IMG/VR virus record: IMGVR_UViG_3300043466_001873
Coordinates: 1-38,318 of that record
DNA: 38,318 bases
Origin: a virus
Reading direction: 5' to 3' (one strand)
Position 1 is the first letter of the stretch, and each line of letters begins with the position of its first letter. Shown here piece by piece: positions 21,682-36,223 of the stretch. The notes below the pieces were generated by a model that saw nothing but the letters and a program-made list of their open reading frames with translations, searched no databases and had not been told where the DNA came from. Made by a program: the position numbers and the translations under genes.

Positions 21682-21781
21682 CTACAAACAACTTACGCAG
21701 CCAGACAGCCAGGCTGCTGCAATTTTTTTACTTTTTGCTATGGGCCCTGGTGGAAAGGATCATGATCTAAAAACAACTTTT
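21682..21781. repeat. Box B - box A - box B cluster
   Basis: Minus strand: AAGTTGTTTTTAGAT (21781-21767), then 28 bases with GATCATGATC, then box A (21740-21723), then CAGCAGCCTGGCTG, then AAGTTGTTTGTAGA (21694-21681). It fills the spacer between the terminator at 21829 and the promoter at 21614. Confidence 0.75.
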
Positions 21782-21828
21782 GGTTCTGCCTTCCGCCTTG
21801 ATGAAAAAAATGTTAAGTTTTTTCCAAT

Positions 21829-21865
21829 AAAAAACTCCCTGCCGTATAAAGACAAGGAGTTTTTT
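21829..21865 (-). terminator. Terminator after the 77-residue gene
   Basis: AAAAAACTCC/GGAGTTTTTT inverted repeat with a 17-nt loop; T-runs on both strands, so it could work in both directions. Confidence 0.75.
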
Positions 21866-21876
21866 GTTTTATTTAA

Positions 21877-22110
21877 TTATCTATCTAACCTAAGTATGCG
21901 TACGAGTTCACTAGCAGTTATTTCCCAGCCAGCATCTGTTTTAACGGCAGTAGCAGGGTGGGGTTCTATGTCAGAAGGTAATACAACTACCTCGTCATAG
22001 TTTTCATCTTGATAGAGTTCCCAAGCCTTGATAGCAGGTTCTGCATAGTCAAGTGGTAGCGGTGGATAAAAGTTTCCCCGTAAGTGGTAACTCATGTTAA
22101 TTGTGTCCAT
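21877..22110 (-). CDS. Hypothetical protein (77 aa)
   Basis: MDTINMSYHLRGNFYPPLPL... Proline-rich N-terminus and acidic middle; no known motif. AAGGGG ribosome site. It is the only gene of a transcript that starts with a strong structured leader. Confidence 0.6.
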   Translation of the reverse strand: MDTINMSYHLRGNFYPPLPLDYAEPAIKAWELYQDENYDEVVVLPSDIEPHPATAVKTDAGWEITASELVRILRLDR

Positions 22111-22130
22111 TGTTTCCCCTTTTTGTTAGG

Positions 22131-22207
22131 TTCGGTAGGGAGTCGTATTGTTTCCCACCCTCTAGAGTTAAAGTGGTTCAGGTGACCAGCGACTTCCCCC
22201 TACCGAA
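22131..22207 (-). ncRNA. Structured 5' leader hairpin
   Basis: The predicted transcript start (about 22208) falls directly at the 5' arm of a long stem: TTCGGTAGGG(GGA)AGTCG (22207-22190) pairs with CGACTCCCTACCGAA (22145-22131). About 44 nt lie between the arms, including a possible inner CCAC/GTGG helix. It could stabilise the mRNA or sense something. It resembles a tRNA acceptor stem only in length. Confidence 0.55.
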
Positions 22208-22214
22208 TAACTTT

Positions 22215-22243
22215 AGTATAGCAATTGTCCAAAGGAAAGTCAA
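22215..22243 (-). promoter_or_regulatory. Promoter of the 77-residue gene
   Basis: TTGACT-17-TATACT with extended TGC, near consensus. Confidence 0.85.
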
Positions 22244-22246
22244 GTA

Positions 22247-22356
22247 TCTATAAACAACTCATTTACCAAGATCCTTAGTAAGCAGCGACAGCAGCACTAG
22301 CAAAAAGTAAAAAATATATCTTCAGCAGCCAGATGGCCTAACTACAAACAACTTTT
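22247..22356. repeat. Box B - reversed box A - box B cluster
   Basis: Plus strand: CTATAAACAACTC (22248), TTACCAAGATC (22262), GCAGCGACAGCAGC, then box A in the opposite orientation to all others (22298-22314), then CAGCAGCCAGATGGCC and ACTACAAACAACTTTT (22341-22356). The last box B overlaps the stop of the Ntn-hydrolase gene. Confidence 0.75.
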
Positions 22357-22927
22357 AGGATCCGAAGTGCTGCACCGAGATGTTAATCGGCAGCCCCGTG
22401 CTTGGATCTAACTTGGCTGCAATAGTTATTGCTTGTCTAATAACATTCTTGGCTGTGCCTAAGGTTTTCTTTTTGTTATCTAGGCTTGCCAGCATCGCTC
22501 CCATAGCGTAGCCACTACCTGAGCCTATGGCGTATACGCCTGTTTCGTCATGTGCCCAGGAAAAGTCATCACCAATCTCGTAGACAGTCCCATTAACCGC
22601 AACCATTATCTGAGAGTCATGCTCTCCGTCTTTACTGTAAGAGTTCTCCTCGAAGCAACGCTTCATATCTTGGATAAAAACAGAAGATATAAACTTGTCT
22701 AACTTTGCCCCGTAAAGGTTTGGATTTATCGCAGGTGGCTTAAAAACATGTGTAAGTATGTTAATAGCACGCATATCTCCTGCCGCACCAATTAAGTATG
22801 GACCGTTTTTATTTACTTTTCCGTTGTCTTTGGGTAGCGTATATATTTTGCTGTTGTCTTCAGTTAGCCTTGAGTCATAGCCTATGGCAACCCAGTTCTC
22901 CCCCTGTATGGCTGCAATAGTTGTCAT
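22355..22927 (-). CDS. Proteasome-beta/HslV-like Ntn hydrolase (190 aa)
   Basis: The N-terminus MTTIAAIQGENWVAIGYDSR fits the 20S proteasome beta/HslV family: after removal of Met, Thr1 would be the nucleophile and Asp17 and Arg19 fall at the family positions. NGKVNK offers the Lys33 equivalent with a 3-residue insertion. YLIGAAGDMRAI and IGSGSGYAMGAMLASLD match later conserved strands. Length fits a processed beta subunit with no propeptide. It may self-assemble into a protease chamber or modify host proteolysis; actinobacterial hosts have a Pup-proteasome. No unfoldase gene is adjacent. G-run ribosome site; box A lies just upstream. Confidence 0.8.
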   Translation of the reverse strand: MTTIAAIQGENWVAIGYDSRLTEDNSKIYTLPKDNGKVNKNGPYLIGAAGDMRAINILTHVFKPPAINPNLYGAKLDKFISSVFIQDMKRCFEENSYSKDGEHDSQIMVAVNGTVYEIGDDFSWAHDETGVYAIGSGSGYAMGAMLASLDNKKKTLGTAKNVIRQAITIAAKLDPSTGLPINISVQHFGS

Positions 22928-22943
22928 GATTTTTCCCCAATTG

Positions 22944-22960
22944 TTTTTTTACTTTTTGCT
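22944..22960 (-). repeat. Box A between two genes
   Basis: An exact copy fills most of the 32-base gap between the 81-residue gene and the Ntn hydrolase gene and touches the stop codon of the former. Confidence 0.8.
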
Positions 22961-23205
22961 TAGTTTAGAAAGCCGTCCCACAAATCTTCTCTGAGTTTTT
23001 CATACTTATCTCCGTGGTATCCGTTGTTTCTCGCAGAAACATCCTCATCCCGAAGTAGAGAGTCTAGCGAAAGGACAGCCGTAAAGTCCTTCTCATCAAA
23101 CATAATAACAATCTTCGTGTCGCCGTCGGCAGGATCATCAACAAGGGCTGCAATAAAAGGAACGGCTGACCCGTTGGCGTGATAATACTTATCTACGATT
23201 TCCAT
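22960..23205 (-). CDS. Hypothetical acidic protein (81 aa)
   Basis: MEIVDKYYHANGSAVPF... Asp-rich, no recognised domain. No clear ribosome site: the AGGG lies in the 3' arm of a short ACCCT/AGGGT hairpin (23217-23235) followed by ATTTTTT, so initiation may be controlled by that hairpin. Confidence 0.55.
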   Translation of the reverse strand: MEIVDKYYHANGSAVPFIAALVDDPADGDTKIVIMFDEKDFTAVLSLDSLLRDEDVSARNNGYHGDKYEKLREDLWDGFLN

Positions 23206-23249
23206 GGTTAAAAAATACCCTACTCTCGGAAGGGTGATTTTGAGTTATT

Positions 23250-23353
23250 AAACACCAAACCCCCCAGATCGGTGGGGGGTTGGCGGAGCATGAAGGGGTA
23301 GTCCCTGCTCTCAACTTGGGGCGGAAAAGGGGATTAACCGCTACCCAAGGTGA
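23250..23353 (-). ncRNA. Candidate small RNA with anti-RBS loop and terminator
   Basis: On the minus strand, a TAAACT box (23364-23359) lies just before three hairpins. Hairpin 1 (23349-23315): CTTGGG-TA-GCGG, loop TTAATCCCCTTTT, CCGC-CCCAAG. Hairpin 2: GAGCA with TGCTC. Hairpin 3: a terminator AACCCCCC/GGGGGGTT (23281-23258) followed by a T-rich tract. Loop 1 is complementary to AAAAGGGGATTAA, very close to the G-run ribosome sites used by many genes here. The -35 box is absent; a degenerate box A (23371-23387) occupies that place. It could also be a 3' UTR of the gene above. Confidence 0.5.
23258..23281 (-). terminator. Terminator in the 23.3 kb spacer
   Basis: AACCCCCC/GGGGGGTT 8-bp stem with an 8-nt loop, followed by TGGTGTTT on the minus strand. 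Confidence 0.75.
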
Positions 23354-23399
23354 GAATTAGTTTAGCCTGATTTTTTACTTTTTATTTCCCAAAAGGCGT

Positions 23400-23747
23400 T
23401 TAGATTTTATCAACTATTGCCACTGGGACGACCACATTGGCAGAGTAAATCTCTCCTTTAGAGTTTGTTCTAGAGAATCTTCCCTTAGGTTTATCAAAAG
23501 AAATACTGATTTTACTTCTCCTGATAGCAACCACAGTTGCTTCTTCTCCTATCAAATACTTTGTTCCGCACTTATCGTTTAGGACAACTTTGTCCCCAAC
23601 TACGAAATCCTTTATATCCGCATCTACTCTTAGGGTGCTAAGTCTTTCCTCTATGAGTTTTTTAAGTGGGATTAGTTGTCTATCCAGTTCTCCACCAGCA
23701 ATAGCATTACAGGTTTCGTCAAACAAATCTATGGAAGTTTTAATCAT
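23400..23747 (-). CDS. Hypothetical protein with SH3/KOW-like middle (115 aa)
   Basis: Helical N-terminal half, then FVVGDKVVLNDKCGTKYLIG and EATVVAIRRSKISISF, the spacing of a small beta-barrel (KOW/SH3-like) that often binds nucleic acid or protein. Overlaps the next gene by 8 bases. Confidence 0.6.
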   Translation of the reverse strand: MIKTSIDLFDETCNAIAGGELDRQLIPLKKLIEERLSTLRVDADIKDFVVGDKVVLNDKCGTKYLIGEEATVVAIRRSKISISFDKPKGRFSRTNSKGEIYSANVVVPVAIVDKI

Positions 23748-23970
23748 TTTCTTCTACCATCCCGTCTTCATTTACAACCCCGATACTATTAGAAACTGAC
23801 GCTACATCAAATCCGTAGTATTCGTTCATAAATACAGAAGCAACACGAACAGCAAAATCGTTATCTGCTTCGTTTTCTTCTCTGAGTTTCTCATCTAAGA
23901 CTATTGTTGTCATTAGCGTAAAGTAGTCACCAACGAACATTACTGTTCGACTCGGTAGGATATTGTCCAT
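23740..23970 (-). CDS. Hypothetical acidic protein (76 aa)
   Basis: MDNILPSRTVMFVGDYFTLM... Acidic, not recognised. Overlaps the gene below it and follows the gene above by 2 bases, so it is operonic. Confidence 0.55.
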   Translation of the reverse strand: MDNILPSRTVMFVGDYFTLMTTIVLDEKLREENEADNDFAVRVASVFMNEYYGFDVASVSNSIGVVNEDGMVEEND

Positions 23971-23972
23971 TA

Positions 23973-24227
23973 TTAGTCCGCGTCCTTTAGGTGTTCGGCA
24001 ATATCTTCAGGATCTGCCCCCATAGATATTAGAACCTTGCGCCATAAACTAGCGACTCCAACCTTCGTGTCCATAAGAAAAAATAACTTATCCACAGAAG
24101 AATCTTTCTTGTTCTCCCACTTCTCAATATCACTTCTCAACATCTCCAGTAGTAGTGCCAATCCCATATTTAGGAAAGCACCTTCTTCGGAATCTACTTC
24201 CAACATCATTGTTTCTTTGTCACTCAT
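23973..24227 (-). CDS. Hypothetical helical protein (84 aa)
   Basis: MSDKETMMLEVDSEEGAFLN... Acidic and predicted mostly helical; not recognised. First gene after the promoter at 24254, with AAAAGGGGG upstream. Confidence 0.6.
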   Translation of the reverse strand: MSDKETMMLEVDSEEGAFLNMGLALLLEMLRSDIEKWENKKDSSVDKLFFLMDTKVGVASLWRKVLISMGADPEDIAEHLKDAD

Positions 24228-24253
24228 TTGAGTAACCCCCTTTTCTTAACATA

Positions 24254-24282
24254 AGTATCTCATGTAATTTGTTTTTTGTCAA
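24254..24282 (-). promoter_or_regulatory. Promoter of the 24.2-22.4 kb operon
   Basis: TTGACA-17-GATACT. The upstream gene's TGA stop codon is part of the TTGACA hexamer. Confidence 0.8.
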
Positions 24283-24665
24283 GCACCTTGTGGCGCATAC
24301 TCGACAACGCGAACAATCGCTTCTCGTTCTATTGAGCCAAGATGAACCCATGAAGTTGCATTTCCAAAAAACTTAGGGTTGTGGTCTGTTCCAACTTCCC
24401 ATTTGGTTTTGCCAGTAATTTCTGTATCTATCTGATACACAAGCAAAGTGTCATGCTCTACATATACGGGGTCGTTGCCTTCTTTAACAAAGTGGAAGTG
24501 TGACATCAACCTAAAACCCATAAAGGTTAAACAATCGTTTTCACTTTCGCTTGCATAGACTTCGCCAAAACTTGAGATAAGTCCGCGTTCATCTATGCTC
24601 TCTCGATTACAGACCGCACTCGCATGGTAAAGATAGCGTGGCAGATTTTTACTTTTTGTTACCAC
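24279..24665 (-). CDS. ADP-ribosyltransferase-like protein (128 aa)
   Basis: Begins at GTG with AGGGG upstream. The opening RYLYHASAVCNRESIDERGL, followed by GEVYAS and a FMGF stretch, resembles the first strands of small ADP-ribosyltransferase or RNA 2'-phosphotransferase (KptA-like) folds (YH-x-[ST] then 'I...GL', then 'VYAS/VHLS'). The later E-containing motif is not certain, so activity is unproven. Its first codons VTKSKN come from a copy of repeat box A. It overlaps the upstream gene by 7 bases. Confidence 0.45.
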   Translation of the reverse strand: MVTKSKNLPRYLYHASAVCNRESIDERGLISSFGEVYASESENDCLTFMGFRLMSHFHFVKEGNDPVYVEHDTLLVYQIDTEITGKTKWEVGTDHNPKFFGNATSWVHLGSIEREAIVRVVEYAPQGA

Positions 24666-24952
24666 TCAGACCCCTGTTCTATCAGTTGCTCAAACCCGTC
24701 ATTAGGATTTTCGTGATTAGTGGTGACTGCTTGTATAAATCTAAGACCGCAAGAATCCTCGAACCACTCCTGTAGGGTGGCTAGCATTTCTTCAGGTGTT
24801 GCTTCCACATTTGTTATTAGTGGGTCGTACTCGTACTCGCGCATTAGTTCTACCTGCTCGTCGTCCATTAAGACATAAATCTTGTGGCAGGTGTCCCAAG
24901 CGATAGCCTTTGCTTCGCTCACTCTTTCTTTTATTAGTTCCAAGTTATTCAT
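24659..24952 (-). CDS. Hypothetical acidic protein (97 aa)
   Basis: Start at ATG 24952, whose A overlaps the previous TAA (TAATG). Acidic, helical, with an EEMLATLQEWFEDSCGLRF stretch. Not recognised. Confidence 0.6.
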   Translation of the reverse strand: MNNLELIKERVSEAKAIAWDTCHKIYVLMDDEQVELMREYEYDPLITNVEATPEEMLATLQEWFEDSCGLRFIQAVTTNHENPNDGFEQLIEQGSEW

Positions 24953-25050
24953 TACCCAACCTCGCAATCATGTCCGTAGGCATACATCTCTGAGTCTGTT
25001 GGATCTGCTAAATTAAAAACTCTTTCACATTCAACGCACTTTACTTTCAT
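24952..25050 (-). CDS. Zinc-finger miniprotein (32 aa)
   Basis: MKVKCVECERVFNLADPTDS then GHDCEVG: CxxC plus His and Cys near the end (CCHC-type). Ribosome site AAAGGGGC. It leads a coupled two- or three-gene operon. Confidence 0.65.
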   Translation of the reverse strand: MKVKCVECERVFNLADPTDSEMYAYGHDCEVG

Positions 25051-25078
25051 TATTGCCCCTTTATTCAGTATTGGTTTA

Positions 25079-25106
25079 AGTATAGCAATTTTTATAAAAA
25101 AGTCAA
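25079..25106 (-). promoter_or_regulatory. Promoter of the 25.05-24.3 kb genes
   Basis: TTGACT-16-TATACT with extended TGC. Confidence 0.8.
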
Positions 25107-25207
25107 GTTTATTTAGGAAGAATCTTTTTGTGTCTTAAATCACACAACTAATCCTCCAAAAAAACTGACATTTTTTTCGCTAAGGTTTTTGGCGTATTTA
25201 ACTAAAT

Positions 25208-25266
25208 AAGTTGTTTGTAGTTTTACCTAGTCACTAGCGATCTTGGTAATTTTTTACTTTTTGCTA
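25208..25266. repeat. Box A - box B pair
   Basis: Minus strand: box A (25266-25250), TTACCAAGATCGCTAG, then ACTACAAACAACTT (25221-25208). TTACCAAGATC also occurs in the 22.26 kb cluster. Lies between the terminator at 25280 and the promoter at 25106. Confidence 0.75.
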
Positions 25267-25279
25267 GGACCAGAAAAAA

Positions 25280-25306
25280 AGAAACCCGGCGTCTAGCCGG
25301 GCTTCT
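25280..25306 (-). terminator. Terminator after the 155-residue gene
   Basis: CCCGGC/GCCGGG core stem extended by GAA/TTC, 5-nt loop, then TTTCTTTTTTTC on the minus strand. Confidence 0.85.
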
Positions 25307-25315
25307 CTTTTTGTT

Positions 25316-25783
25316 TTAGATTTCTACTTCTGAGTTTTCCTTTGTACGAACAATCACCTTACTGTGTATTTCGTTTCTTGTTTCAGCGAAGTCGCTTGAC
25401 TTCCAGCACTCATGTTCGTAGGCGCGAACTAGAAGTTTTGCTAATGAGTGTTCGCTATCTATTTCTAACGCTTTATTTAGGTTGTTAATAGATAGTTCTT
25501 TTTCCCCGTTCTCGTATAGGAACGCAGATGAAACTGAATAGAGATTAAGAAGTTCGGACTGATTGACTTCCTCTATCATTTTTTTACATAGAGAAATCAT
25601 AAAAGTTAATCCGAAATCGTTCGGCATACCCATAAAGTAATCACGAACAAGTAGATTTTTACTTATTGCTCTACTAGATACCTCTAACGCTTCTTTATCT
25701 AACTCTTTTGTTTCCATAAAGTTAGTAGCAAGAAAGTTAAGGGATTTTATTGCTTCACCTATTGTTATTGTCTTTGTTGTCAT
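25316..25783 (-). CDS. DUF4192/TPR-like protein (155 aa)
   Basis: KNLLVRDYFMG, SLCKKMIEE, then LYSVSSAFLYENGEKELSIN and ALEIDSEHSLAKLLVRA follow the actinobacterial DUF4192 pattern (VRD, CR/K, AW-G, AL...P...LA). The last part also resembles a TPR-type helical pair. Molecular function unknown. AAAGGGG ribosome site. A terminator sits just upstream, so its transcription is partly attenuated or it relies on read-through. Confidence 0.5.
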   Translation of the reverse strand: MTTKTITIGEAIKSLNFLATNFMETKELDKEALEVSSRAISKNLLVRDYFMGMPNDFGLTFMISLCKKMIEEVNQSELLNLYSVSSAFLYENGEKELSINNLNKALEIDSEHSLAKLLVRAYEHECWKSSDFAETRNEIHSKVIVRTKENSEVEI

Positions 25784-25808
25784 TTTTACCCCTTTGTTTT
25801 TTAAGAAA

Positions 25809-25829
25809 CCCCCCGCCTTGTGCGGGGGG
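25809..25829 (-). terminator. Intra-operon terminator
   Basis: CCCCCCGC/GCGGGGGG 8-bp stem with a 5-nt loop, then TTTCTT on the minus strand. Confidence 0.8.
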
Positions 25830-25844
25830 CTTCCCTTTTAATTA

Positions 25845-26249
25845 TTACCGAGTTGTTTTTAGAACTGTGTTGGTGCTTTCTGAACTGAAAGCCTCAACTA
25901 GCGGTAGGAGTTCAGGATTTTCCTGTAAGAACTTTTCTTTATCAAAGTTTGTACGAGTTTGTGTTCCTACTTTGATAACGGAAACTCCGTCAATAGTGCC
26001 TTCGTTTGCGACACCAATCCACTTATCGCCAACCTTCTTGTATCCAAGAAGTGAATAGATTTCGGCTTGTAGTGATTTGTATTGGGCTTCTAAGGTTGCC
26101 TTATCTGCCTTGTTTGCCTCAAACTTCTCTAGAAGTTCTTTGGCATTAGTTTCGTCAAGAGCGACTACTTTTGTATCGTTCTTGATAGTTGTAGTAGTAG
26201 TGCGAACTGCGACTACTGTGTCTACAACACCTTTAACTGTGTTTGTCAT
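25845..26249 (-). CDS. Hypothetical coiled-coil protein (134 aa)
   Basis: Thr/Val-rich N-terminus, then a coiled coil (LLEKFEANKADKATLEAQYK) and a beta stretch (YKKVGDKWIGVANEGTIDGV). Not recognised. AAAGGA ribosome site. Confidence 0.6.
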   Translation of the reverse strand: MTNTVKGVVDTVVAVRTTTTTIKNDTKVVALDETNAKELLEKFEANKADKATLEAQYKSLQAEIYSLLGYKKVGDKWIGVANEGTIDGVSVIKVGTQTRTNFDKEKFLQENPELLPLVEAFSSESTNTVLKTTR

Positions 26250-26298
26250 TTGTGTCTTTTTCCTTTCGGTAAGAGAGAGTTTCTCACTTACATAACGG

Positions 26299-26327
26299 AC
26301 AATACACGACTATTTCAGGGAAGTCAA
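26299..26327 (-). promoter_or_regulatory. Promoter of the 26.2 kb gene
   Basis: TTGACT-17-TATTGT. Confidence 0.75.
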
Positions 26328-26385
26328 GTCTAAAAGGCAGGAAAGTCTAAAATACTTTTATACCCCCGCAGCGGCAGCCTAGTGC

Positions 26386-26443
26386 TTTTTTTACTTTTTG
26401 CTATGCCAGATTTCCTGGAGCCGCAGACTTCCAAACAACTTTT
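26386..26443. repeat. Box B - box A pair
   Basis: Minus strand: AAGTTGTTTGGA, 27 bases containing CCAGGAAATCTGG, then box A (26403-26386). Box-to-box distance (39 bases) is the same as at 35.93-35.97 kb. Confidence 0.75.
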
Positions 26444-26448
26444 ACAAA

Positions 26449-26486
26449 AAAAAAGAAGACCTAGCGTTAGCCAGATCTTCTTTTTT
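26449..26486 (-). terminator. Bidirectional terminator
   Basis: GAAGACCT/AGATCTTC stem with one mismatch, flanked by A- and T-runs, after the DUF3846 gene. Confidence 0.75.
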
Positions 26487-26496
26487 CGGGAAGTTT

Positions 26497-26871
26497 TTAG
26501 ATATACATACCGCTCAGTAGGAAAGAAGCAGGTATAACTTTTTTATCGTAGTTCAGCCAATAAGCGACTTGTTCATCAGTAAGACCTAAAGTCTCACCCT
26601 CATCATCACAACTGCCAGTAATAATCACATTACCGAGAATTGGATTACTAGCGTTAAAGGCATCTGAGTAGATAGCCGAAGCAATCATATTTAAGGGAAG
26701 ACCCTCAGCGATGCCGTTTTCGTTGCACCACAAGTCTGCGCCTTCTAAACCAACACACTCAATCATGCCACCAACGGCATCACTTAGTAGTTGGTAAGAC
26801 TTACCAAAATCAAACTCAACAACGGATTTGTCTCCGTCTGTTGTAATGATTACTGCTTTTTGCTTTTCCAT
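26497..26871 (-). CDS. DUF3846-like protein (124 aa)
   Basis: Start at ATG 26871 (AAAGGGGG upstream). The order LLSDAVGGMIECVGLEGADL, NENGIAEGLPLNMIAS, ILGNVIITGSCDDEGETLGL fits the family: 'VGG-IE-v', a 'NE-g-L-N' turn and 'I-GnvlitG'. DUF3846 occurs in phage and plasmid accessory regions; no biochemical role is established to my knowledge. Confidence 0.7.
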   Translation of the reverse strand: MEKQKAVIITTDGDKSVVEFDFGKSYQLLSDAVGGMIECVGLEGADLWCNENGIAEGLPLNMIASAIYSDAFNASNPILGNVIITGSCDDEGETLGLTDEQVAYWLNYDKKVIPASFLLSGMYI

Positions 26872-26899
26872 TTTTCCCCCTTTACTTGTTGTTGGCTCA

Positions 26900-26928
26900 A
26901 TAGTAACAACTAAAAACAAAGAAGTCAA
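26900..26928 (-). promoter_or_regulatory. Promoter of the DUF3846 gene
   Basis: TTGACT-17-TACTAT. Confidence 0.8.
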
Positions 26929-26949
26929 GTACTGACCGCAAGTCTTTAA

Positions 26950-26964
26950 TTTTTACTTTTTGCT
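26950..26964 (-). repeat. Box A upstream of the DUF3846 promoter
   Basis: Exact copy 22 bases upstream of the -35 box and 2 bases after the stop of the 45-residue gene. Confidence 0.8.
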
Positions 26965-26965
26965 T

Positions 26966-27103
26966 TTACGCCGATACTAGTACTCGTGGGTAGTGTGGTT
27001 TTTCTACGCCTCTATCCCAGAAGCACACCGCACCGCCCATGTTGTCTACCCACAAATCAAAGTCGGCTGTGATATCCCAACCGCAACTTTTGCAAGTTAC
27101 CAT
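26966..27103 (-). CDS. Zinc-knuckle miniprotein (45 aa)
   Basis: MVTCKSCGWDITADFDLWVD... One CxxC plus a later Cys and His. The ATG overlaps the previous TAA (TAATG), so translation is coupled. Function unknown. Confidence 0.6.
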   Translation of the reverse strand: MVTCKSCGWDITADFDLWVDNMGGAVCFWDRGVEKPHYPRVLVSA

Positions 27104-27324
27104 TATTCGTTCTCCAATCCTGCCACCATACTCTCCCAGCATTTGGGATGAGTTCCTGAAATAATCTGTTCCCTTAAAGACATATCCAGTTCAGAGAAAG
27201 CCTCTTGTACCGACGCACCCTTTTTGCGTGCCATATACCCTTCAGAAGAAACTTCTACGAAGCCTCCCTTACCGCACATAGCGCAGGTTGGTGTCCGCAT
27301 TAAAACTGTTGTGTTGCTTGCCAT
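27103..27324 (-). CDS. Small metal-binding protein (73 aa)
   Basis: ATG at 27324 chosen for the AAAGGGG site; an upstream ATG at 27348 has none. CAMCGKGGFVEV and THPKCW supply CxxC plus H-x2-C, a plausible zinc site around a helical insert (VQEAFSELDMSLREQI). I have seen similar proteins in actinophages without function. Confidence 0.65.
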   Translation of the reverse strand: MASNTTVLMRTPTCAMCGKGGFVEVSSEGYMARKKGASVQEAFSELDMSLREQIISGTHPKCWESMVAGLENE

Positions 27325-27348
27325 AACTACCCCTTTCCCTTTAGACAT

Positions 27349-27377
27349 ATTATTTCAGAATAATCTTTATTTGTCAA
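27349..27377 (-). promoter_or_regulatory. Promoter of the 27.3 kb genes
   Basis: TTGACA-17-AATAAT. The -35 box lies in the codons of the upstream gene's C-terminal Leu-Asp-Lys. Confidence 0.75.
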
Positions 27378-27804
27378 GCATATCAAGAAGCGTCTCCGCA
27401 TCAAAATACTCCTGATAGACATAATTTTGTGCCGCACAAATAGCATCATCTAAAGTGTGGGTTACCGCATCAAGGTGTTCTCCGTAGCAATAAAGGTCGA
27501 ACCAAGAGTTCATATCCATAATTAAAGTTTCGTTCTCTACTGCTTCATTAAACTTACTGTCCGTATCAAAGCCACCTCGTATTAAATCCGAACCACCCAT
27601 GTAGTACTCGTCTGTCTTTCGGTTGTGTATCTTTGTATCTCCGTCACAATAAATATCAACGGCAAAGCCTTCGTATGAAACCGTTCCTATTAAACCTTCT
27701 CCAGCATAAAAACAAGCATCATATCTTTCGGTAACTGAAGGAACAAGATGAGATGCGTATTTGATAACAAACTTGCTTTCGTCCCGCATCTGATATTTTT
27801 TCAT
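27367..27804 (-). CDS. Hypothetical protein (145 aa)
   Basis: MKKYQMRDESKFVIKYASHL... Acidic, aromatic-rich; not recognised. The ATG at 27804 is abutted by repeat box A with no ribosome site. The frame extends to a TTG at 27858, but that start lies inside the terminator hairpin. Confidence 0.6.
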   Translation of the reverse strand: MKKYQMRDESKFVIKYASHLVPSVTERYDACFYAGEGLIGTVSYEGFAVDIYCDGDTKIHNRKTDEYYMGGSDLIRGGFDTDSKFNEAVENETLIMDMNSWFDLYCYGEHLDAVTHTLDDAICAAQNYVYQEYFDAETLLDMLDK

Positions 27805-27818
27805 TTTTACTTTTTGCT
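27804..27818 (-). repeat. Box A abutting a start codon
   Basis: AGCAAAAAGTAAAAA runs directly into the ATG of the 145-residue gene. A GCGGCCGC site precedes it, and the terminator at 27845-27877 is the only other element in the gap. Confidence 0.8.
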
Positions 27819-27844
27819 TTCGCCGCGGCCGCAAAGGGGAAGCA

Positions 27845-27877
27845 AAGTGGAACTCCAAAGGGGTAGGAGTTCCACTT
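27845..27877 (-). terminator. Terminator of the VWA gene
   Basis: Perfect 12-bp stem AAGTGGAACTCC/GGAGTTCCACTT with a 9-nt loop; the T-run is weak. Confidence 0.65.
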
Positions 27878-27888
27878 GCTCTTTTTGA

Positions 27889-29664: not shown

Positions 29665-29689
29665 TTTTACTACCCCCTTTGTTAATCTA

Positions 29690-29718
29690 ATTATTGCATA
29701 CTAGGTATCTATTGTCAA
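29690..29718 (-). promoter_or_regulatory. Promoter of the VWA gene
   Basis: TTGACA-17-AATAAT with TGC extension. Confidence 0.8.
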
Positions 29719-29728
29719 GTTAATAAGG

Positions 29729-29759
29729 GGGGCGCATTTCACCTAGAGAAATACGCCCC
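29729..29759 (-). terminator. Terminator after the AAA+ gene
   Basis: GGGGCG-ATTTC arms with one mismatch, 7-nt loop, followed by CCTTATTAA on the minus strand. Confidence 0.65.
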
Positions 29760-29786
29760 ACCCCCCAGCCAAACTAATTTAATAAA

Positions 29787-30839
29787 TTAGATTTTGGCAG
29801 GCTTGGCTTCTAACCCATAAGCGCGAGTTAGAACATCTGCGACTACCGCCCTATCGTCATTTGGGGCTGACGCGATTAAGTTTGCGATAGCGAACTCAGT
29901 TCCGAAAGTTGTTGCTATGTCACGGAAGGCGAGAAGTTCTCGCATCTGTGGCGACCAACTTATTCTTTCTTTATTCAAAACCTTGCGATATAAGTTTTGT
30001 GCGCAAGTAACCATTTGTGTTGGAACTCCTAAAGTACGAGCCAAGTTCCAATCAGTTGTCATTTCTGCTTGGACAACAAAGCGAGATAGTAACGCTTCGC
30101 TAAGTCTTACGCCCGGAGCCTTTGGATTTGTCGCTGCGACAACATAGAAGTCAGGGTGAGATTTTACTGTTCCTCTTTCAGGATTAGCAGTAATTGTGAT
30201 TTCTCTTTTTCCGTCCATGAGATTGTAAATAACTGAAAGAACCTTAGGGTCAATCAGACCAATCTCATCTATGAAATAAACTTCGCCATTTTCCGCAGCC
30301 TTAACTAAATCTCCGTCCACCCACTCAAAGTTTCCACTAGGAGTTTGGACATAAGAACCAATCAAGTCAGCAACTTCTACATCACCATTACCAAGTAGTG
30401 TGCGAACACCTTCACCGAAAGAAGCCTCAATCAACGCAGTTTTACCTGTGCCGGGAACTCCATAAAGCATGGCGAACATTGGTTGTCCAACACCAGTTAG
30501 AACTGATTGCTTTGTTGCTTCTCTTGCTTTGCGTAGAACTTCTACATCTTTGTTTTGACCCCATACGCGAGCATGGTAGGCAGAACCATTTGGACGCAAG
30601 TAGACACTTTCGCCACCTAAAGCATCAACACTCATTAGAGCATCTGCCTTTGGTTTGCGTGACTTTCTATCAGCACCAATCGCTCTTTCAACATAGCGAC
30701 CTTGTGGAAGCACATTGGTAGACAACTGCTTTGACGCATTATCATTTACTCCTTGCGTTGCCACATCTATAATCATTTCCCAGTAAGTTGGAGAAAGATT
30801 AGGACTTAATTCTTTATATCTCTCTTTTAGAGTATTCAT
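29787..30839 (-). CDS. MoxR/CobS-type AAA+ ATPase (350 aa)
   Basis: Walker A GVPGTGKT (127-134), the ADLIGSYVQ strand typical of MoxR/CobS, Walker B VYFIDE (187-192), sensor 1 AATNP (235-239), and LSRF with the candidate arginine finger R253. About 100 residues precede the ATPase core. AAA+ proteins of this group remodel partner proteins and work with a VWA protein that presents the substrate, here the next gene. AAAAGGGGAT ribosome site; in operon with the 151-residue gene. Confidence 0.88.
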   Translation of the reverse strand: MNTLKERYKELSPNLSPTYWEMIIDVATQGVNDNASKQLSTNVLPQGRYVERAIGADRKSRKPKADALMSVDALGGESVYLRPNGSAYHARVWGQNKDVEVLRKAREATKQSVLTGVGQPMFAMLYGVPGTGKTALIEASFGEGVRTLLGNGDVEVADLIGSYVQTPSGNFEWVDGDLVKAAENGEVYFIDEIGLIDPKVLSVIYNLMDGKREITITANPERGTVKSHPDFYVVAATNPKAPGVRLSEALLSRFVVQAEMTTDWNLARTLGVPTQMVTCAQNLYRKVLNKERISWSPQMRELLAFRDIATTFGTEFAIANLIASAPNDDRAVVADVLTRAYGLEAKPAKI

Positions 30840-30857
30840 AGTTTATCCCCTTTTCCC

Positions 30858-31313
30858 TTATACCAATTCAGGAAAGCCAAGTGCTTTCCTAGAAATGTGA
30901 ATACGATAAATTACCTTGTTAGGTGTTTTGCTCTTTCCAATATCATCAGCATCATGGCGAGATATTTCTGTAAGGATAGGAGTTTTCTCCATAGCCCAAC
31001 CATTGGAAATAAGAGTGTCAAAGTAAGAAGTTGTATAGCGCATACGATTTTCCGTAAAGGTATCTTTATCGCTATCAGGAAGAAGTTGATTGTTGTCAAT
31101 CAAATCTTTTACTTCTTTAGAGTTAATGGAAGTAGTTCTCCATTGTCTTTTAGGTGTAGCAGGTGTAACCACTCTTCGGTGGAAAGACATTGGAACTAGA
31201 CTTCCCGAAGTGTTGTATGCGTCAGGTGTTACAAGTATCTGCATGACTTGTCCCGGCTTTCGGAACTCGGCATACACCGCAACTCCCTGCACTTTCTTTT
31301 CTTTATCCAGCAT
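30858..31313 (-). CDS. Hypothetical protein preceding the AAA+ gene (151 aa)
   Basis: MLDKEKKVQGVAVYAEFRKP... Beta-rich first half (GQVMQILVTPDAY), then helical, with no cysteines; not recognised. It is 18 bases upstream of the AAA+ gene and shares its promoter, so it may be a third member of the module. Confidence 0.6.
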   Translation of the reverse strand: MLDKEKKVQGVAVYAEFRKPGQVMQILVTPDAYNTSGSLVPMSFHRRVVTPATPKRQWRTTSINSKEVKDLIDNNQLLPDSDKDTFTENRMRYTTSYFDTLISNGWAMEKTPILTEISRHDADDIGKSKTPNKVIYRIHISRKALGFPELV

Positions 31314-31357
31314 TTCTTTTTCCTTTCTAGGTTAAGGTTTCTTGCTAGGTATAAGTA

Positions 31358-31386
31358 TTATTACATACTTTTGATTATTTTGTCAA
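31358..31386 (-). promoter_or_regulatory. Promoter of the 31.3 kb gene and the AAA+ gene
   Basis: TTGACA-17-TAATAA. The whole core promoter lies inside or over the 3' end of the upstream coding sequence. Confidence 0.8.
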
Positions 31387-31759
31387 ATTGCTCTTTTACC
31401 AGCGTGTCTGATTGGCAGAAGGTTTCTAGGCTTATCTCGTCTAGAACATTGTCAGGGTTATTGGTTTCACGAATAGAGACTTTCCCTGAGTGCCACTCAA
31501 CTACCTGAATTGTGTCGTAGTCAGGTGAGCAGAAATGATTTACTGAAATGCCATGTCCCAAAGTATCGTTCCAATTAGCACCCACAATTTGTGAGATACA
31601 AATACGAGTTGCGTAGTCAGAGTCGGACCAGCGACTTTCTGCTTTTTGTAAAGCATGAGCCAAGATTTCTTTTTGTGCTTCTCCACCCCATTGGGAGTAG
31701 ATGTAAATTATTGGGTCGGCAGGTTTTGCCTGAAACCCAATCACCATACGATCACCCAT
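31361..31759 (-). CDS. Conserved phage hypothetical protein (132 aa)
   Basis: MGDRMVIGFQAKPADPIIYI then YSQWGG: a start I recognise from phage proteins of unknown function. AAAAGGGGA ribosome site. Confidence 0.65.
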   Translation of the reverse strand: MGDRMVIGFQAKPADPIIYIYSQWGGEAQKEILAHALQKAESRWSDSDYATRICISQIVGANWNDTLGHGISVNHFCSPDYDTIQVVEWHSGKVSIRETNNPDNVLDEISLETFCQSDTLVKEQFDKIIKSM

Positions 31760-31790
31760 TTTATTTCCCCTTTTCTTTAGGCTTGGCAGA

Positions 31791-31819
31791 ACTCTACCAA
31801 ATTGTTATTCCTTTGTCAA
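31791..31819 (-). promoter_or_regulatory. Promoter of the 31.8 kb gene
   Basis: TTGACA-17-TAGAGT. TTGACA encodes Leu-Thr at the end of the upstream Api92-like gene. Confidence 0.8.
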
Positions 31820-32452
31820 GACCAAATCCTGCTTGGCGTGAAGTTCTATTGGCTTCAGGTTCTCAGGACAATCGTCGTAAAGGTCGTCGTAATCGCCATC
31901 AAAGTTTTCACATCTCCAGCAGTAGTTGTCATTGGCTTCCATCTCTTCTTCATGAGTTGATGGAATATCCCACTCTCTAATAATTTCGGTCGTTGAGCCC
32001 TGAAAGTTTATTTCTGCTCCCCAGCCCTGTTCTTCACGAAACTCCAAAGTCATGTTCACATTAGGATTTTGTTGTGCCAGTTTTTCTATGACCTGAGTTG
32101 GTGAAGACCACGCAGTATCAAACTTATAGTGAAGAGATGTTTCATCTTCTTCTAGAAGTTCTACCTCGCAGGCATCCCACTTAGTTCCCCACTCACGATT
32201 ATTAAAGTTATACCAGTTGTATTCGCTATCACCTTGCTTTTTTCCGTCAGCGAACCCATGAGTTCCATAGTATTCATCTAACTTGTCTGCTGGTGGTGGA
32301 AGGATATTCATAAAAGAAAAAATAGGTTTTTTCTCTACTTCTTCTTTATCCTCATACCTAGTTGTAATGCTTGCGCCAACCTGCGCTTTTAATTTTGCTA
32401 TGTCTTCTTTAGAACCATCTACTGATAAATGATTAAACACCCAATTAGGCAT
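31805..32452 (-). CDS. Api92-like / DUF1281-like protein (215 aa)
   Basis: MPNWVFNHLSVDGSKEDIAK start, NILPPP turn, WYNFNNREWGTKWDACEVEL, then LHYKFDTAWSSPTQVIEKLA and LEFREEQGWGAEI. This is the pattern of the ferredoxin-like fold of Api92-like phage proteins. A C-terminal extension adds a CWRC motif and an acidic stretch. Function unknown. Overlaps the gene above by 8 bases. Confidence 0.75.
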   Translation of the reverse strand: MPNWVFNHLSVDGSKEDIAKLKAQVGASITTRYEDKEEVEKKPIFSFMNILPPPADKLDEYYGTHGFADGKKQGDSEYNWYNFNNREWGTKWDACEVELLEEDETSLHYKFDTAWSSPTQVIEKLAQQNPNVNMTLEFREEQGWGAEINFQGSTTEIIREWDIPSTHEEEMEANDNYCWRCENFDGDYDDLYDDCPENLKPIELHAKQDLVLTKE

Positions 32453-32711
32453 TTTTACCCCCTACTAAGTTTTCACGAAACTCGGGTAAAGTAAAATCAG
32501 GAAGACCAAACATAAATCCCCCACCATTACCCTCTTCATCTTGCGAGAGAACAAGTTCAACAAGTTCTCCATTTGTAAGTTTTGCTATGAACATTGGAAA
32601 ACCGCGACCACCAAAATCATCAGGGTCAGTTCCCTTGAACCTAATAATTGTTGCGCCTTCAAGTTGTTTGTAATAGCCCATGTTCCAGCGTTCCTGTGTA
32701 TCGTCTTTCAT
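32445..32711 (-). CDS. Hypothetical protein (88 aa)
   Basis: MKDDTQERWNMGYYKQLEGA... Glycine-rich loops (DDFGGRGFPMF, GNGGGFMFGLPDF). Not recognised. AAGGGGGC ribosome site. Confidence 0.6.
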   Translation of the reverse strand: MKDDTQERWNMGYYKQLEGATIIRFKGTDPDDFGGRGFPMFIAKLTNGELVELVLSQDEEGNGGGFMFGLPDFTLPEFRENLVGGKNA

Positions 32712-32729
32712 ATTGCCCCCTTAGTTTTA

Positions 32730-32756
32730 TAGTCCGTGTTCGCAAGTAGCGGACTA
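32730..32756 (-). other. Leader hairpin of the 32.7 kb transcript
   Basis: TAGTCCG/CGGACTA 7-bp stem (32756-32750 with 32736-32730), 13-nt loop, within the roughly 80-nt 5' UTR. Confidence 0.5.
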
Positions 32757-32798
32757 ACCCACCTTCACAAATCGCTCATACAAGCGGTGCGAAACGCC

Positions 32799-32827
32799 AT
32801 CATACAAGAACCGCATCTTTTTGTCAA
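32799..32827 (-). promoter_or_regulatory. Promoter of the 32.7 kb operon
   Basis: TTGACA-17-TATGAT, near consensus. Confidence 0.85.
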
Positions 32828-32879
32828 GTATCCTTGTCCCTCGTTCAGATGACAAACGCCGGAATACCAGACATCACAA

Positions 32880-33010
32880 CAACTTCGGGACCTTCGCTTT
32901 TTTTGACAGCGGCAATTTTTTTACTTTTTGCTTGCGTGCCCGCATACAATTTTTACTTTTTGCTAAGGAGTCTTCCAACTTTCGGAGTAGTGTATAAACA
33001 ATTTTTATAG
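32880..33010. repeat. Two box A copies with degenerate box B
   Basis: Box A at 32916-32932 and 32950-32965, both in the usual orientation, with degenerate box B words at 32886 (ACAACAACTTC) and 32991 (TATAAACAATTTTTA). The spacer has no gene. Confidence 0.75.
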
Positions 33011-33046
33011 TTTGATGACTCGGGTATTTGGATGGGAAAATACAAA

Positions 33047-33070
33047 AGGCGTGCCTTTTCAGACACGCCT
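33047..33070 (-). terminator. Terminator after the 129-residue gene
   Basis: AGGCGTG/CACGCCT 7-bp stem, 10-nt loop, then TTTTGTATTTT. Confidence 0.8.
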
Positions 33071-33087
33071 AAAGTAAGTTAAAAGTA

Positions 33088-33477
33088 TTACACGGTGGCT
33101 CTAGTTTTCCAACCCTCGCCAGTTATTTTTATTCTGAACACAGACTCGAAAGCCGTAGCAACCAAATCTGTTATATCTACCCACTTATCCGTTGCATTAA
33201 ACAAAAGACTCGCATTAGGGTAGTCAGGCAAATCCGCATCCGATGTGTAGTCACCAAGCACTACAACCCTGTCGCCAGCCCAACGCCCAGAGATACCCGT
33301 ATCAGGTAAATCCCCGTTGCCTCGGTTAGGACTTGTCATTGTTAAGATATACATGGCGTCGGCAAGCGTGCCGTTGAATTCGCCAAGATGTTCATATTGC
33401 TTTAGACCCAAGCCGAGCCCGTGTGGTGATACAACTTCTTCTTTATCTAGATTTACTAGAACATGGTATTGACCCAT
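33088..33477 (-). CDS. Conserved phage hypothetical protein (129 aa)
   Basis: MGQYHVLVNLDKEEVVSPHG then LGLGLKQYEH, RGNGD and GRWAGDRVVVLGDY form a family I recognise in actinobacterial and other phages, with no known function. ATG overlaps the previous TAA (TAATG). Confidence 0.7.
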   Translation of the reverse strand: MGQYHVLVNLDKEEVVSPHGLGLGLKQYEHLGEFNGTLADAMYILTMTSPNRGNGDLPDTGISGRWAGDRVVVLGDYTSDADLPDYPNASLLFNATDKWVDITDLVATAFESVFRIKITGEGWKTRATV

Positions 33478-33653
33478 TAGTTAATCTCCTCAAGTGAGAT
33501 TGTTAAGTTCGATGTTGAGTACTCCTCGTCATCTCCCTCATGTGTAGCAGGTTCTTCAATCTGCGGTGCAACATGCCCGATTAGATTATCTTCTTCTTCA
33601 GACGAAAGTACTTTGTCCGTATCAAAAGAAATCACCATTCGATATCTAGCCAT
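33477..33653 (-). CDS. Small acidic protein (58 aa)
   Basis: MARYRMVISFDTDKVLSSEE... A beta strand followed by a very acidic stretch. Ribosome site AAAGGGG. Coupled to the next gene. Confidence 0.65.
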   Translation of the reverse strand: MARYRMVISFDTDKVLSSEEEDNLIGHVAPQIEEPATHEGDDEEYSTSNLTISLEEIN

Positions 33654-33679
33654 TTGGCTTCCCCTTTCTAGGTATCTTT

Positions 33680-33707
33680 ATCTTAGCAGTTTTTAGTTGT
33701 TTGTCAA
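33680..33707 (-). promoter_or_regulatory. Promoter of the 33.6 kb operon
   Basis: TTGACA-16-TAAGAT with TGC extension. TTGACA encodes Leu-Thr in the subtilase C-terminus. Confidence 0.8.
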
Positions 33708-34619
33708 GTTAAATTGCTTAGGGTAAAAGAGTGTCGTGGTTTTGTAGGCATTGACTAAGGAAGCATTAACGCTAGCCATAACCGTACTTAGGTTCTCGCC
33801 ACCAGAGAGTCTTTTATTTAGGTAAGTAGCAAAAGCCACAGTTGCGTTAGAAGTTCCTAGAGATAGGGACTTCTTGTCTGATATATCAGTTGTGATGTAT
33901 TTGCCGTAAGTGTAAAGGTCAAGGTCAGCACCATTGTTAGATGTAGCCATAATTGGGTACACCCAACCTGAGACTCCTCGCATTGAGTATCTGTCCTCGG
34001 TTGCGCCCACCGCAATCGCTTGTGGGATACAAGCAGGGTAGTCAATCTTTGTGGCGTTGCCACCATTACCAGCAGAGATAACAACTGCTACATCTGAAGC
34101 AATAAGGTTTGAGATTTGAGTTTGAAGTTTTGTCTCTATTGGACATGAAGCCTGTGAGTAGGCTCTACCTAGAGAGATAGATACCGCACCAACATTTAGT
34201 CGTGTCTTATTCTTCTCAACATAATCCAAAGCCCAAGATATTGCTTTAGTTGTGTAAGGAGTCGGCACACCTCGTGGAGTCATGCCAGCAACTCGGATAG
34301 AAACAATTTTTACATTTGGGTCGATGGCTACTGCTACTGAAGCCATTTGAGTCCCGTGACTAAACGAACCAGCAGTTGTCATAGCAGGAGTAATCTTTGA
34401 TGCGCCAGCGCCAGTCATTTGTGAAAAGCCATTTGGACATCTGTGAAACTCAAGAAAGCACGCTTCATCTACAACCGCACTTTTAGCCCAAGCCAAATCT
34501 GTGTTTATGCCTGAGTCGATAATTACTAAAGTTTTCTCACCAACCGCGCTCGCGGTTTGGGTGGGAATTAAAGTTACCGAAAGGGCAACTACCATAAGTA
34601 TAATTTTACTTTTTGTCAT
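33693..34619 (-). CDS. Secreted subtilisin-like serine protease (308 aa)
   Basis: Signal peptide: basic MTKSK, hydrophobic IILMVVALSVTLI, cleavage after TASA (residue 25). Catalytic triad of family S8: D35 in VIIDSG, H88 in SHGTQMAS, S257 in GTSNATVAFA, with oxyanion N185 in SAGNGGN. The usual Pro after GTS-x-A is Val. An exported protease in a phage could alter the host surface or degrade envelope proteins; no propeptide is evident. The ATG overlaps the zinc-ribbon stop (ATGA) and lacks a ribosome site, so translation depends on coupling. Its first codons come from a box A-like word. Confidence 0.85.
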   Translation of the reverse strand: MTKSKIILMVVALSVTLIPTQTASAVGEKTLVIIDSGINTDLAWAKSAVVDEACFLEFHRCPNGFSQMTGAGASKITPAMTTAGSFSHGTQMASVAVAIDPNVKIVSIRVAGMTPRGVPTPYTTKAISWALDYVEKNKTRLNVGAVSISLGRAYSQASCPIETKLQTQISNLIASDVAVVISAGNGGNATKIDYPACIPQAIAVGATEDRYSMRGVSGWVYPIMATSNNGADLDLYTYGKYITTDISDKKSLSLGTSNATVAFATYLNKRLSGGENLSTVMASVNASLVNAYKTTTLFYPKQFNLTNN

Positions 34620-34792
34620 TTGTTTAACACCAATCTTTGTCCTGCCCCTAACCCCAGCCCAACGCCAAAGTTTTCAAAACAATGTTGGCACATGTTTGCC
34701 CATGGTCCAATCTTTGTTCGTGCATCATAATTTGCTACTTCACCGCAGAAATCGCAGTTAGGTAAATTAACTACTTCTACTTGCTTAGACAT
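34616..34792 (-). CDS. Zinc-ribbon protein (58 aa)
   Basis: NCDFCGEV and MCQHCFENF: two CxxC pairs 20 residues apart, followed by a Gly-rich tail. It overlaps the gene above by 8 bases and is coupled to the subtilase below. Confidence 0.7.
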   Translation of the reverse strand: MSKQVEVVNLPNCDFCGEVANYDARTKIGPWANMCQHCFENFGVGLGLGAGQRLVLNK

Positions 34793-35102
34793 TTAGTTCC
34801 CTTACGCTATCTGCCATTGCTTTAGCATCAACTAGATTGTTCCAGTCTTCTGCTCTAATGTCAAGTAGGAACTGTATTGGTTCGACGTCATTTCCGACGT
34901 GAGCCAGGACGAGTGCCCTGTGATGGACAATGTCTTTGTTTGTATGACCTTGGTGGTCGAAGACAACCATTTGTAAAACATGGATGCCATTTGTAGAGAG
35001 AAAAGGCGCCCTCTCTGGGTACTGATTAAAATTAAGCACCTGTGCTGTCTTGATTAATTTTTTCAGTGTATTTGAGTTTACTGCTTTGTATTTGTTTGTC
35101 AT
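34785..35102 (-). CDS. Hypothetical protein from a leaderless mRNA (105 aa)
   Basis: MTNKYKAVNSNTLKKLIKTA... Beta-alpha mix with HVLQMVVFDHQGH; not recognised. No ribosome site; the A of ATG falls exactly at the predicted transcription start. First gene of the operon that leads to the subtilase. Confidence 0.65.
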   Translation of the reverse strand: MTNKYKAVNSNTLKKLIKTAQVLNFNQYPERAPFLSTNGIHVLQMVVFDHQGHTNKDIVHHRALVLAHVGNDVEPIQFLLDIRAEDWNNLVDAKAMADSVRELNV

Positions 35103-35108
35103 AGAAGT

Positions 35109-35137
35109 ATCTAACCATATGTTTAAACGTTTGTCAA
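35109..35137 (-). promoter_or_regulatory. Leaderless promoter of the 35.1 kb operon
   Basis: TTGACA-17-TTAGAT, then 6 nt, then ATG. Confidence 0.8.
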
Positions 35138-35138
35138 A

Positions 35139-35357
35139 TCAACCTTCGATGCGACATCTCTCATGCTCATTCATACAGCAAACACAGTAATTCTCATGAG
35201 CATCGTGACTACAGCATTTATCGGGATCTACTTTATCTAAAAGATTATTTAGCCAGCGATTTATTGTGTCAGCGGTTCTGACATTTAAATCGGATGTCGG
35301 TTCTAGTTGTTGCTGAATTTCTTTTAATTTATACGCTATGTAACCTAGAAGTATCAT
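35139..35357 (-). CDS. Cys/His-rich small protein (72 aa)
   Basis: ATG at 35357 chosen for GGGAG upstream; the frame extends to a TTG at 35390 inside the WhiB gene. Helical first half, then KCCSHDAHENYCVCCMNEHE and RC: six Cys and three His, likely a metal-binding tail. Overlaps WhiB by 29 bases. Confidence 0.55.
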   Translation of the reverse strand: MILLGYIAYKLKEIQQQLEPTSDLNVRTADTINRWLNNLLDKVDPDKCCSHDAHENYCVCCMNEHERCRIEG

Positions 35358-35691
35358 CCGCTTGTTCTCCCGATATCTCTGCTGTGTCAATTGAATTCTT
35401 GAATCTGACTATACCCATCCGTTCATCCTGTGTCAATCCACCCCACACACCGTAGTTCTCTGGCACCGCTAATGCGTGCTCTAAGCACTCCGTCTTAACT
35501 GGGCATGCCGTGCATATTTTTTTAGCGGCACTCTCCCGTGCCTGCTTCTCAAGTCCTCGGAGCATGTCGTCATTAAAGAAGACGGTTGCATCCACGCCGT
35601 CACTTCTACACAAGCCGTCGTCTTGCCATGACCAATGACTGGCAATCGGTATTAATGCATCGTTCATATTAAACACGGGGTCTGGGTTCAT
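35329..35691 (-). CDS. whiB-like: WhiB-like transcription factor (120 aa)
   Basis: The four cluster cysteines are C28 (GLCR), C60, C63 and C69 (ICTACPVKTECL), followed by the GVWGG turn (81-85) and a basic helix. WhiB-like proteins carry a 4Fe-4S cluster and bind the primary sigma factor; they are restricted to Actinobacteria and their phages. It could redirect host transcription to the sigma70-type promoters in this window. Predicted leaderless: -10 box 6 nt before the ATG. Confidence 0.93.
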   Translation of the reverse strand: MNPDPVFNMNDALIPIASHWSWQDDGLCRSDGVDATVFFNDDMLRGLEKQARESAAKKICTACPVKTECLEHALAVPENYGVWGGLTQDERMGIVRFKNSIDTAEISGEQADDTSRLHSV

Positions 35692-35697
35692 GCCGTT

Positions 35698-35727
35698 ATG
35701 CTAGCAATGGCTCAAGCCGTTTGTCAA
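35698..35727 (-). promoter_or_regulatory. Leaderless promoter of the WhiB-like gene
   Basis: TTGACA-18-TAGCAT with TGC extension, then 6 nt, then ATG. Confidence 0.8.
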
Positions 35728-35866
35728 GAACCGCTGTAGCAAGCCGCTTGCCGCTCAAACAACATCTCAATAATTTTAGGTTCTCAACTTTACGCCGCAT
35801 GCTGCGTAAAGCTATCCTATCAGGCCTGTCAAGCCGTTGAGCACGCCGAGCTAACCAGGTACAACC

Positions 35867-36180
35867 GTAAACAACTTTTGTAGATGGCAACCTCGACAGC
35901 TGCTGTACCAAGCCGCTTTTTTACTTTTTGCTATTAACAGCTCCAGGTACCTGGTCAGATACAAACAACTTTCTCAAGTGCTGTGCCATCTGGTGAAACC
36001 TCCGCCACCACCGCCTCCATCACCAGAGCCTCCATCGAGCTGGGAATCTAAAAACAACTTTTGAATGTGCTGCTCTTGTTTAATTTTTGAGCGTCAAGCT
36101 GCAGGAGGATTTTTCATTTGCACACTACAAACAACTTCGACATCTACCAGCTCCAGATGGCAAGCCGTTGAATTTATACA
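35867..36180. repeat. Long box A/B cluster, no gene
   Basis: Four box B copies at about 35867, 35960, 36048 and 36124 (76-93 bases apart) and one box A at 35917-35933. Between them are CCAGGTACCTGG, CATCT/AGATG inverted repeats and words such as CCAGATGG. No start codon with a ribosome site was found; short open frames exist on the minus strand but are broken by stops. Confidence 0.7.
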
Positions 36181-36223
36181 TACTTAGAATTAAGACTGTA
36201 CGAATTTAAAGAATCTCTGACGC

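Follow-up and report, generated by a model that had tools for sequence, protein, structure and literature searches.

What are the paired repeats that lie in the long spacers of this phage genome? The window, that is, the whole stretch of DNA analysed here, is a linear virus record of 38,318 bases, and nearly all of its genes lie on the minus strand. It carries a portal protein gene and a WhiB gene (PF02467, E 9.6e-22), and therefore the host is likely to be an actinobacterium. Two asymmetric words recur in this sequence. Box A (GCAAAAAGTAAAAA, or TAGCAAAAAGTAAAAA in the sense of the genes) is rich in A-tracts, and its exact 14-base form occurs 14 times in the window, against 0.00 copies expected from shuffles. 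Box B (AAGTTGTTTGTAG in gene sense) occurs as 10 exact 12-base copies, against 0.08 expected. Searches of the open-access literature for intergenic repeats of freshwater actinophages gave no description of these boxes.

The boxes come together in six modules, and the sites of these modules are the six longest intergenic spacers in our gene list of the window. The first-pass annotation had reported more than ten copies of box B accompanying box A in the spacers at 21.7, 22.3, 25.2, 26.4, 32.9, and 35.9 kb; this agrees with our count of seven exact copies, three with one mismatch, and two with two mismatches. All modules are given here on the minus strand. Module 1 (21683-21779) displayed B (21768-21779), A (21725-21739), and B (21683-21694), all on the gene strand. 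Module 2 (22249-22354) consists of B (22343-22354), an inverted A (22299-22313), and a B with one mismatch (22249-22260). Module 3 (25208-25265) combines A (25251-25265) with an inverted B (25208-25219), and a terminator-like hairpin occupies its upstream side. Module 4 (26388-26441) holds B with one mismatch (26430-26441) and A (26388-26402), with an uncertain, degenerate second B near 26345. Module 5 (32874-33004) includes B with one mismatch (32993-33004), two copies of A (32950-32964 and 32918-32932), and B with two mismatches (32874-32885). Finally, module 6 (35866-36137) contains three copies of B (36126-36137, 36049-36060, and 35960-35971), A (35918-35932), and a further B with two mismatches (35866-35877). 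Counted between the first bases of B and A, the distance of exactly 39 bases previously noted for two of these spacers was recovered in both: B starts at 26441 and A at 26402 in the 26.4-kb spacer, and B starts at 35971 and A at 35932 in the 35.9-kb spacer.

The spacing of the boxes extends beyond the window. Across 215 distinct copies of A, collected from the window and the related genomes that we fetched, B starts at -39 (15 copies), -49 (5 copies), or +42 to +46 relative to A, in either orientation. The distance between box B and box A is about 40 or 50 bp; B lies on either side of A, often on both sides at once, an arrangement (B-A-B) that had been overlooked earlier and that makes full modules of 91-114 bp. 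The variable relative orientations remarked on before are seen both across the A copies and among whole modules: both B boxes and A point in one direction in 10 of 18 non-redundant modules, and the clade of the window carries an inverted A at the HslV 3' locus, where L121 and L131 have a forward one. Terminal inverted repeats, as expected of a mobile element, were not the rule among these 18 modules, in 14 of which the two B boxes are co-oriented.

The B-A pair is a viral feature. About 20 viral contigs contain it, in 27 stretches altogether; among 84,980 cellular genomes it was retrieved only once, in a Lachnospiraceae assembly, an occurrence that we take as chance. Of 24 records compared as a panel, 11 carry the A core (AAAAAGTAAAAA) in at least four copies and the other 13 carry at most one copy; most of the compared genomes are metagenomic fragments, and related sequences among them are not independent. 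No convincing A- or B-like boxes were detected in the first 50 kb of the Microbacterium phages Pumpernickel, Cece, Big4, and A3Wally.

The position of the modules provided insights into their probable role. A promoter-like TTGAC-TAnnnT sequence follows each of the six modules on the minus strand, at 21586-21614, 22215-22243, 25079-25106, 26299-26327, 32799-32827, and 35698-35727 for modules 1 to 6, respectively. Across genomes, 51 of the 76 A copies that are accompanied by B have such a match within 230 bp on one side, compared with 7.4% of random one-sided windows. The distance from module to promoter is variable, ranging from 50 to about 200 bp. As a separate observation, the word GTCAGGAAR lies inside or beside promoter spacers at 19339, 20639, and 21604 (minus strand), and a related word, AGTGCAGGAAGG, is repeated in relatives devoid of box A.

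Based on the sequences, we postulate that the modules are probably dispersed phage operators, in which box A and its flanking B boxes would bind one or more sequence-specific proteins upstream of host-type promoters. Near-fixed spacing, free orientation, drifting cores, and an upstream position are typical of sites for co-operating or bridging proteins, which is why we favour this reading. The copies of A and B would each act as an asymmetric site for such proteins, most likely phage-encoded, which would line up next to one another, or bridge B-A-B, upstream of the promoters that drive operons of small genes. Points against this reading include the variable distance from module to promoter and the 44 of 154 A copies that are directed opposite to the local genes, in contrast to stoperators. 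We infer an effect on transcription; that the modules silence rather than activate is a guess, made by analogy with the stoperators discussed below.

The cores, i.e., the segments between boxes, might be expected to carry a signal of their own, as the first-pass annotation had proposed that they often hold palindromes. They differ in composition (G+C content of 0.52 over non-redundant cores versus about 0.41 for the window), yet inverted repeats and folding displayed no excess over the cores' own shuffles in two sets of 36 and 43 non-redundant cores (mean inverted-repeat p of 0.57 and 0.63; mean folding z of -0.13 and -0.01), which argues against palindromic hairpins as their common property. 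With p 0.01, the core CCAGGTACCTGG from the 35.9-kb spacer is one of the strongest inverted-repeat cases of 79, which is about as expected by chance. Likewise, CCAGG and GCAGC are frequent in the cores, though the top scores of shuffles are about as high, so that no third motif emerged. At orthologous loci of sister phages the cores drift in place. There, cores are 55-90% identical, compared with 94-100% for A and 63-100% for B, where the loci were chosen for holding the module and the identities of A are inflated because its presence was required. Cores mostly diverge faster than boxes, and at 21.7 kb the identity of core 1 is 0.66 versus 0.90 for its left flank. In the operator model, the cores would serve as spacers that matter by their length and not by their sequence.

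An alternative is that the modules are a mobile or site-specifically recombining element, with B and A as constant ends and a core that is replaced or inverted by a recombinase. The orientations of A and B do vary, three records (G002, G006, and G013) carry a serine recombinase, and the gene adjoining module 3 in the window (24659-24967) adjoins the equivalent of module 2 in several sister phages. Breakpoints are also suggestive: where homology between the window and sister phages ends, 9 of 44 end bins fall within 45 bp of box A, against 2.6 expected by circular shift (P 0.005). Against random intergenic placement, however, the expectation rises to a mean of 4.9 and significance is lost (P 0.087), so we do not regard these breakpoints as proof of recombination. 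The link between box A modules and gene exchange is only suggestive, and the same pattern would arise from gene turnover at operon boundaries. Furthermore, the modules sit at orthologous loci with cores that drift in place, inverted repeats are not in excess, G006 and G013 have their recombinase gene a long way from the boxes, and no tyrosine integrase was found in 13 records, which may be fragments. Altogether, such an element seems improbable. Of the two possibilities raised in the first-pass annotation, then, a multi-protein binding site is sustained by the spacing, the orientation-free boxes, the drifting cores, and the position upstream of promoters, whereas a mobile or recombining element is disfavoured by the orthologous positions, the lack of palindromic ends, and the near absence from cellular genomes.

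Box A also occurs without B. On the minus strand of the window, single copies overlap the ATG of a 306-aa gene (37647-37660; GCAAAAAGTAAAAATG) and that of the gene ending at 27367 (27804-27818), while others lie in the gap that separates a stop codon from the following gene (36545-36559), directly past a stop codon and 22 bp upstream of a TTGAC promoter-like site (26950-26964), and at the gene junction before an HslV-like gene (22946-22960). On the same strand, a 65-aa HTH-like gene has a box A core within its opening codons (MAKSKK; 19779-19792), and another box A is in the linker of the 17953-18441 gene (18224-18238), where relatives encode AKSKK or AKSKN. Besides gene starts, stops, and junctions, single copies occupy coding DNA in several frames (AKSKK, AKSKN, KQKVK), pointing to a constraint on the nucleic acid. 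Under the operator model they would be further sites of the same system.

The surroundings of the copy at 37647-37660 deserve a description. Directly upstream of this box A and the ATG of the 306-aa ORF, a stem of about 16 bp encloses a conserved loop rich in A and T (TAAAAAATAAnCAAAATA; 37661-37735, minus strand). The stem sequence varies between clades with complementarity kept (window, L120, L121, L126, L141, and L153), and the structure may belong to a terminator or to a packaging site. Separately, several clades share a long hairpin-like sequence of similar type immediately after a box A, in L142 (13929, minus), L152 (12293, plus), L064 (14172, minus), L077 (16277, minus), and L054 (16970, minus). 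Meanwhile, CGGCTTG occurs 11 times on the minus strand at 35600-37700, a segment overlapping the part of the window with the highest G+C content, and three times elsewhere in the window on both strands.

Copies at start codons raise the question of whether box A works chiefly at translation starts or at the RNA level, as has been suggested for the SAS of cluster K phages, its pairing with B being a separate second function. Indeed, among the 215 A copies, 28 directly adjoin an ATG from which a frame of 30 or more codons runs, and A follows the local gene direction in 110 of 154 cases. Nevertheless, most copies are away from starts, many lie upstream of a promoter, and the remaining 44 of the 154 run against gene direction, which leaves this explanation little room.

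If the boxes are operators, which protein would bind them? The leading, though unproven, candidate is a family of double helix-turn-helix (double-HTH) proteins of about 200 aa, whose reference member has 207 aa (G006:37733-38353). Box A and the protein occur together in nine records, A alone in two, the protein alone in one, and neither in 12 (Fisher P 0.0005, a value that overstates the evidence, as the groups with and without A are related by descent and kinship was left uncorrected). The nine are strong homologues among the 11 records with box A; in the other two (G008 and G015) the A region is at the end of the record, and the gene may have been cut off. Among the 13 other records, only Pumpernickel has a strong homologue, and weak matches elsewhere fit a distant paralogue beside the portal gene. 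Gene content pointed in the same direction: 62 query proteins were present in at least four of five genomes with box A, and eight of these, including two of the double-HTH family, were absent from four genomes without it. A DNA-binding domain was recognised in the double-HTH family only, in a scan that covered part of the eight.

In three relatives (L133, L142, and L150), the first 120 bases of the double-HTH gene contain box A, exact or with one mismatch, and an inverted B, a layout that would suit autoregulation; most copies of the gene, including those of the window's clade, have no box at the 5' end. An AlphaFold model displayed two helical HTH regions with moderate confidence (pLDDT 75). 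A Foldseek search with this model gave no significant match in the PDB, and a search among the sequences of solved structures with the alignment of the family gave nothing convincing. Pumpernickel provides contrary evidence, since it encodes two copies of the protein and AAAAAGTAAAAA is absent from its whole genome. The double-HTH protein (L137:17733-18353) and a 166-aa protein encoded near the portal gene (window 16984-17484) look like distant paralogues, the latter being found both with and without box A.

A host nucleoid protein similar to Lsr2, or some other host factor, could instead bind the boxes. The A-tracts of box A speak for this, and Lsr2 as a phage-encoded binder was dropped since none was found in 13 phage records, so a host protein would be needed. 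This is very unlikely in our judgement, as the boxes are fixed words rather than mere A+T-rich DNA and the pair is all but missing from the 84,980 cellular genomes. Least credible of all is a module transcribed as a structured leader or small RNA: the modules do lie in non-coding DNA beside terminators and promoters, but they precede the promoter, carry A in both orientations, fold no better than shuffles either as 18 non-redundant whole modules (mean z of -0.26 and -0.55) or as cores, and have their best Rfam matches far under the gathering scores, for which we rejected them as RNA elements.

The dispersed operators proposed here are best explained as comparable to the stoperators of cluster A and the SAS of cluster K phages, while being a distinct two-box variant. 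Cluster A mycobacteriophages such as L5 carry more than 20 dispersed, asymmetric 13-bp sites in promoter regions and short intergenic spaces, and in TipsytheTRex a single two-domain repressor monomer reads such a site (PMC9283540). Many asymmetric sites, intergenic and at promoters, are likewise found in the window. In contrast, the sequence differs, two boxes at near-fixed spacing replace one, the A+B modules lie 50-200 bp upstream of promoters, and A may run against the genes where stoperators follow the direction of transcription. The cluster A repressor has an HTH and a Stoperator domain; our candidate has two predicted HTH regions and no significant structural match. Cluster A phages are also temperate and carry integration genes, and of the 13 records scanned here, which may be fragments, three encode a serine recombinase and none was found to encode a tyrosine integrase.

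The SAS of cluster K genomes are a 13-bp asymmetric repeat in 11-19 copies, all in the non-structural region, and about half of these copies have a further element upstream that contains a variable spacer, the ESAS (PMC3203893, PMC12699233). Their consensus (GGGATAGGAGCCC) differs throughout from both boxes, and SAS sit close to start codons, only a few bases away, unlike most copies of A. ESAS are paired 17-bp inverted repeats with spacers mostly of 4-13 bp, whereas B is a single asymmetric box about 25-46 bp from A on either side. The inverted pairing also has no counterpart here, as B pairs are mostly direct and cores show no inverted-repeat excess. The 17-bp repeats of the cluster O phage Corndog (PMC4351075) are similarly dispersed, phage-specific, intergenic and coding, and found in phages without a known integrase; unlike our boxes, they are palindromic, and most of them lie away from promoters. 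DSL-LC01 (OQ999401; L174 in our set) is a related phage with a 77% identical portal that has neither A nor B boxes. Upstream of its small genes, at about 22.6-43.3 kb, one motif is repeated more than 30 times, and this motif is a palindrome (GATTCTA-N12-TAGAATC) overlapping TATAAT, apparently a separate promoter-operator system.

A bolder version of the operator model holds that new double-HTH regulators form a three-point complex on B-A-B, acting on host-type promoters from a distance regardless of orientation, with the sites also serving as joints for cassette exchange between phages. We consider this unlikely; if true, it would be unlike any described phage operator system.

These findings have implications for phages of abundant freshwater actinobacteria, such as the virus described here, which are known almost only from metagenomes. 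We found no account of how such phages control their many small genes. The modules offer a defined cis element, spacing rules, and one named candidate protein, all of which can be tested in vitro with no need for a cultured host. Alongside stoperators and SAS, they would represent a further distinct solution to the question of dispersed repeats in actinophages.
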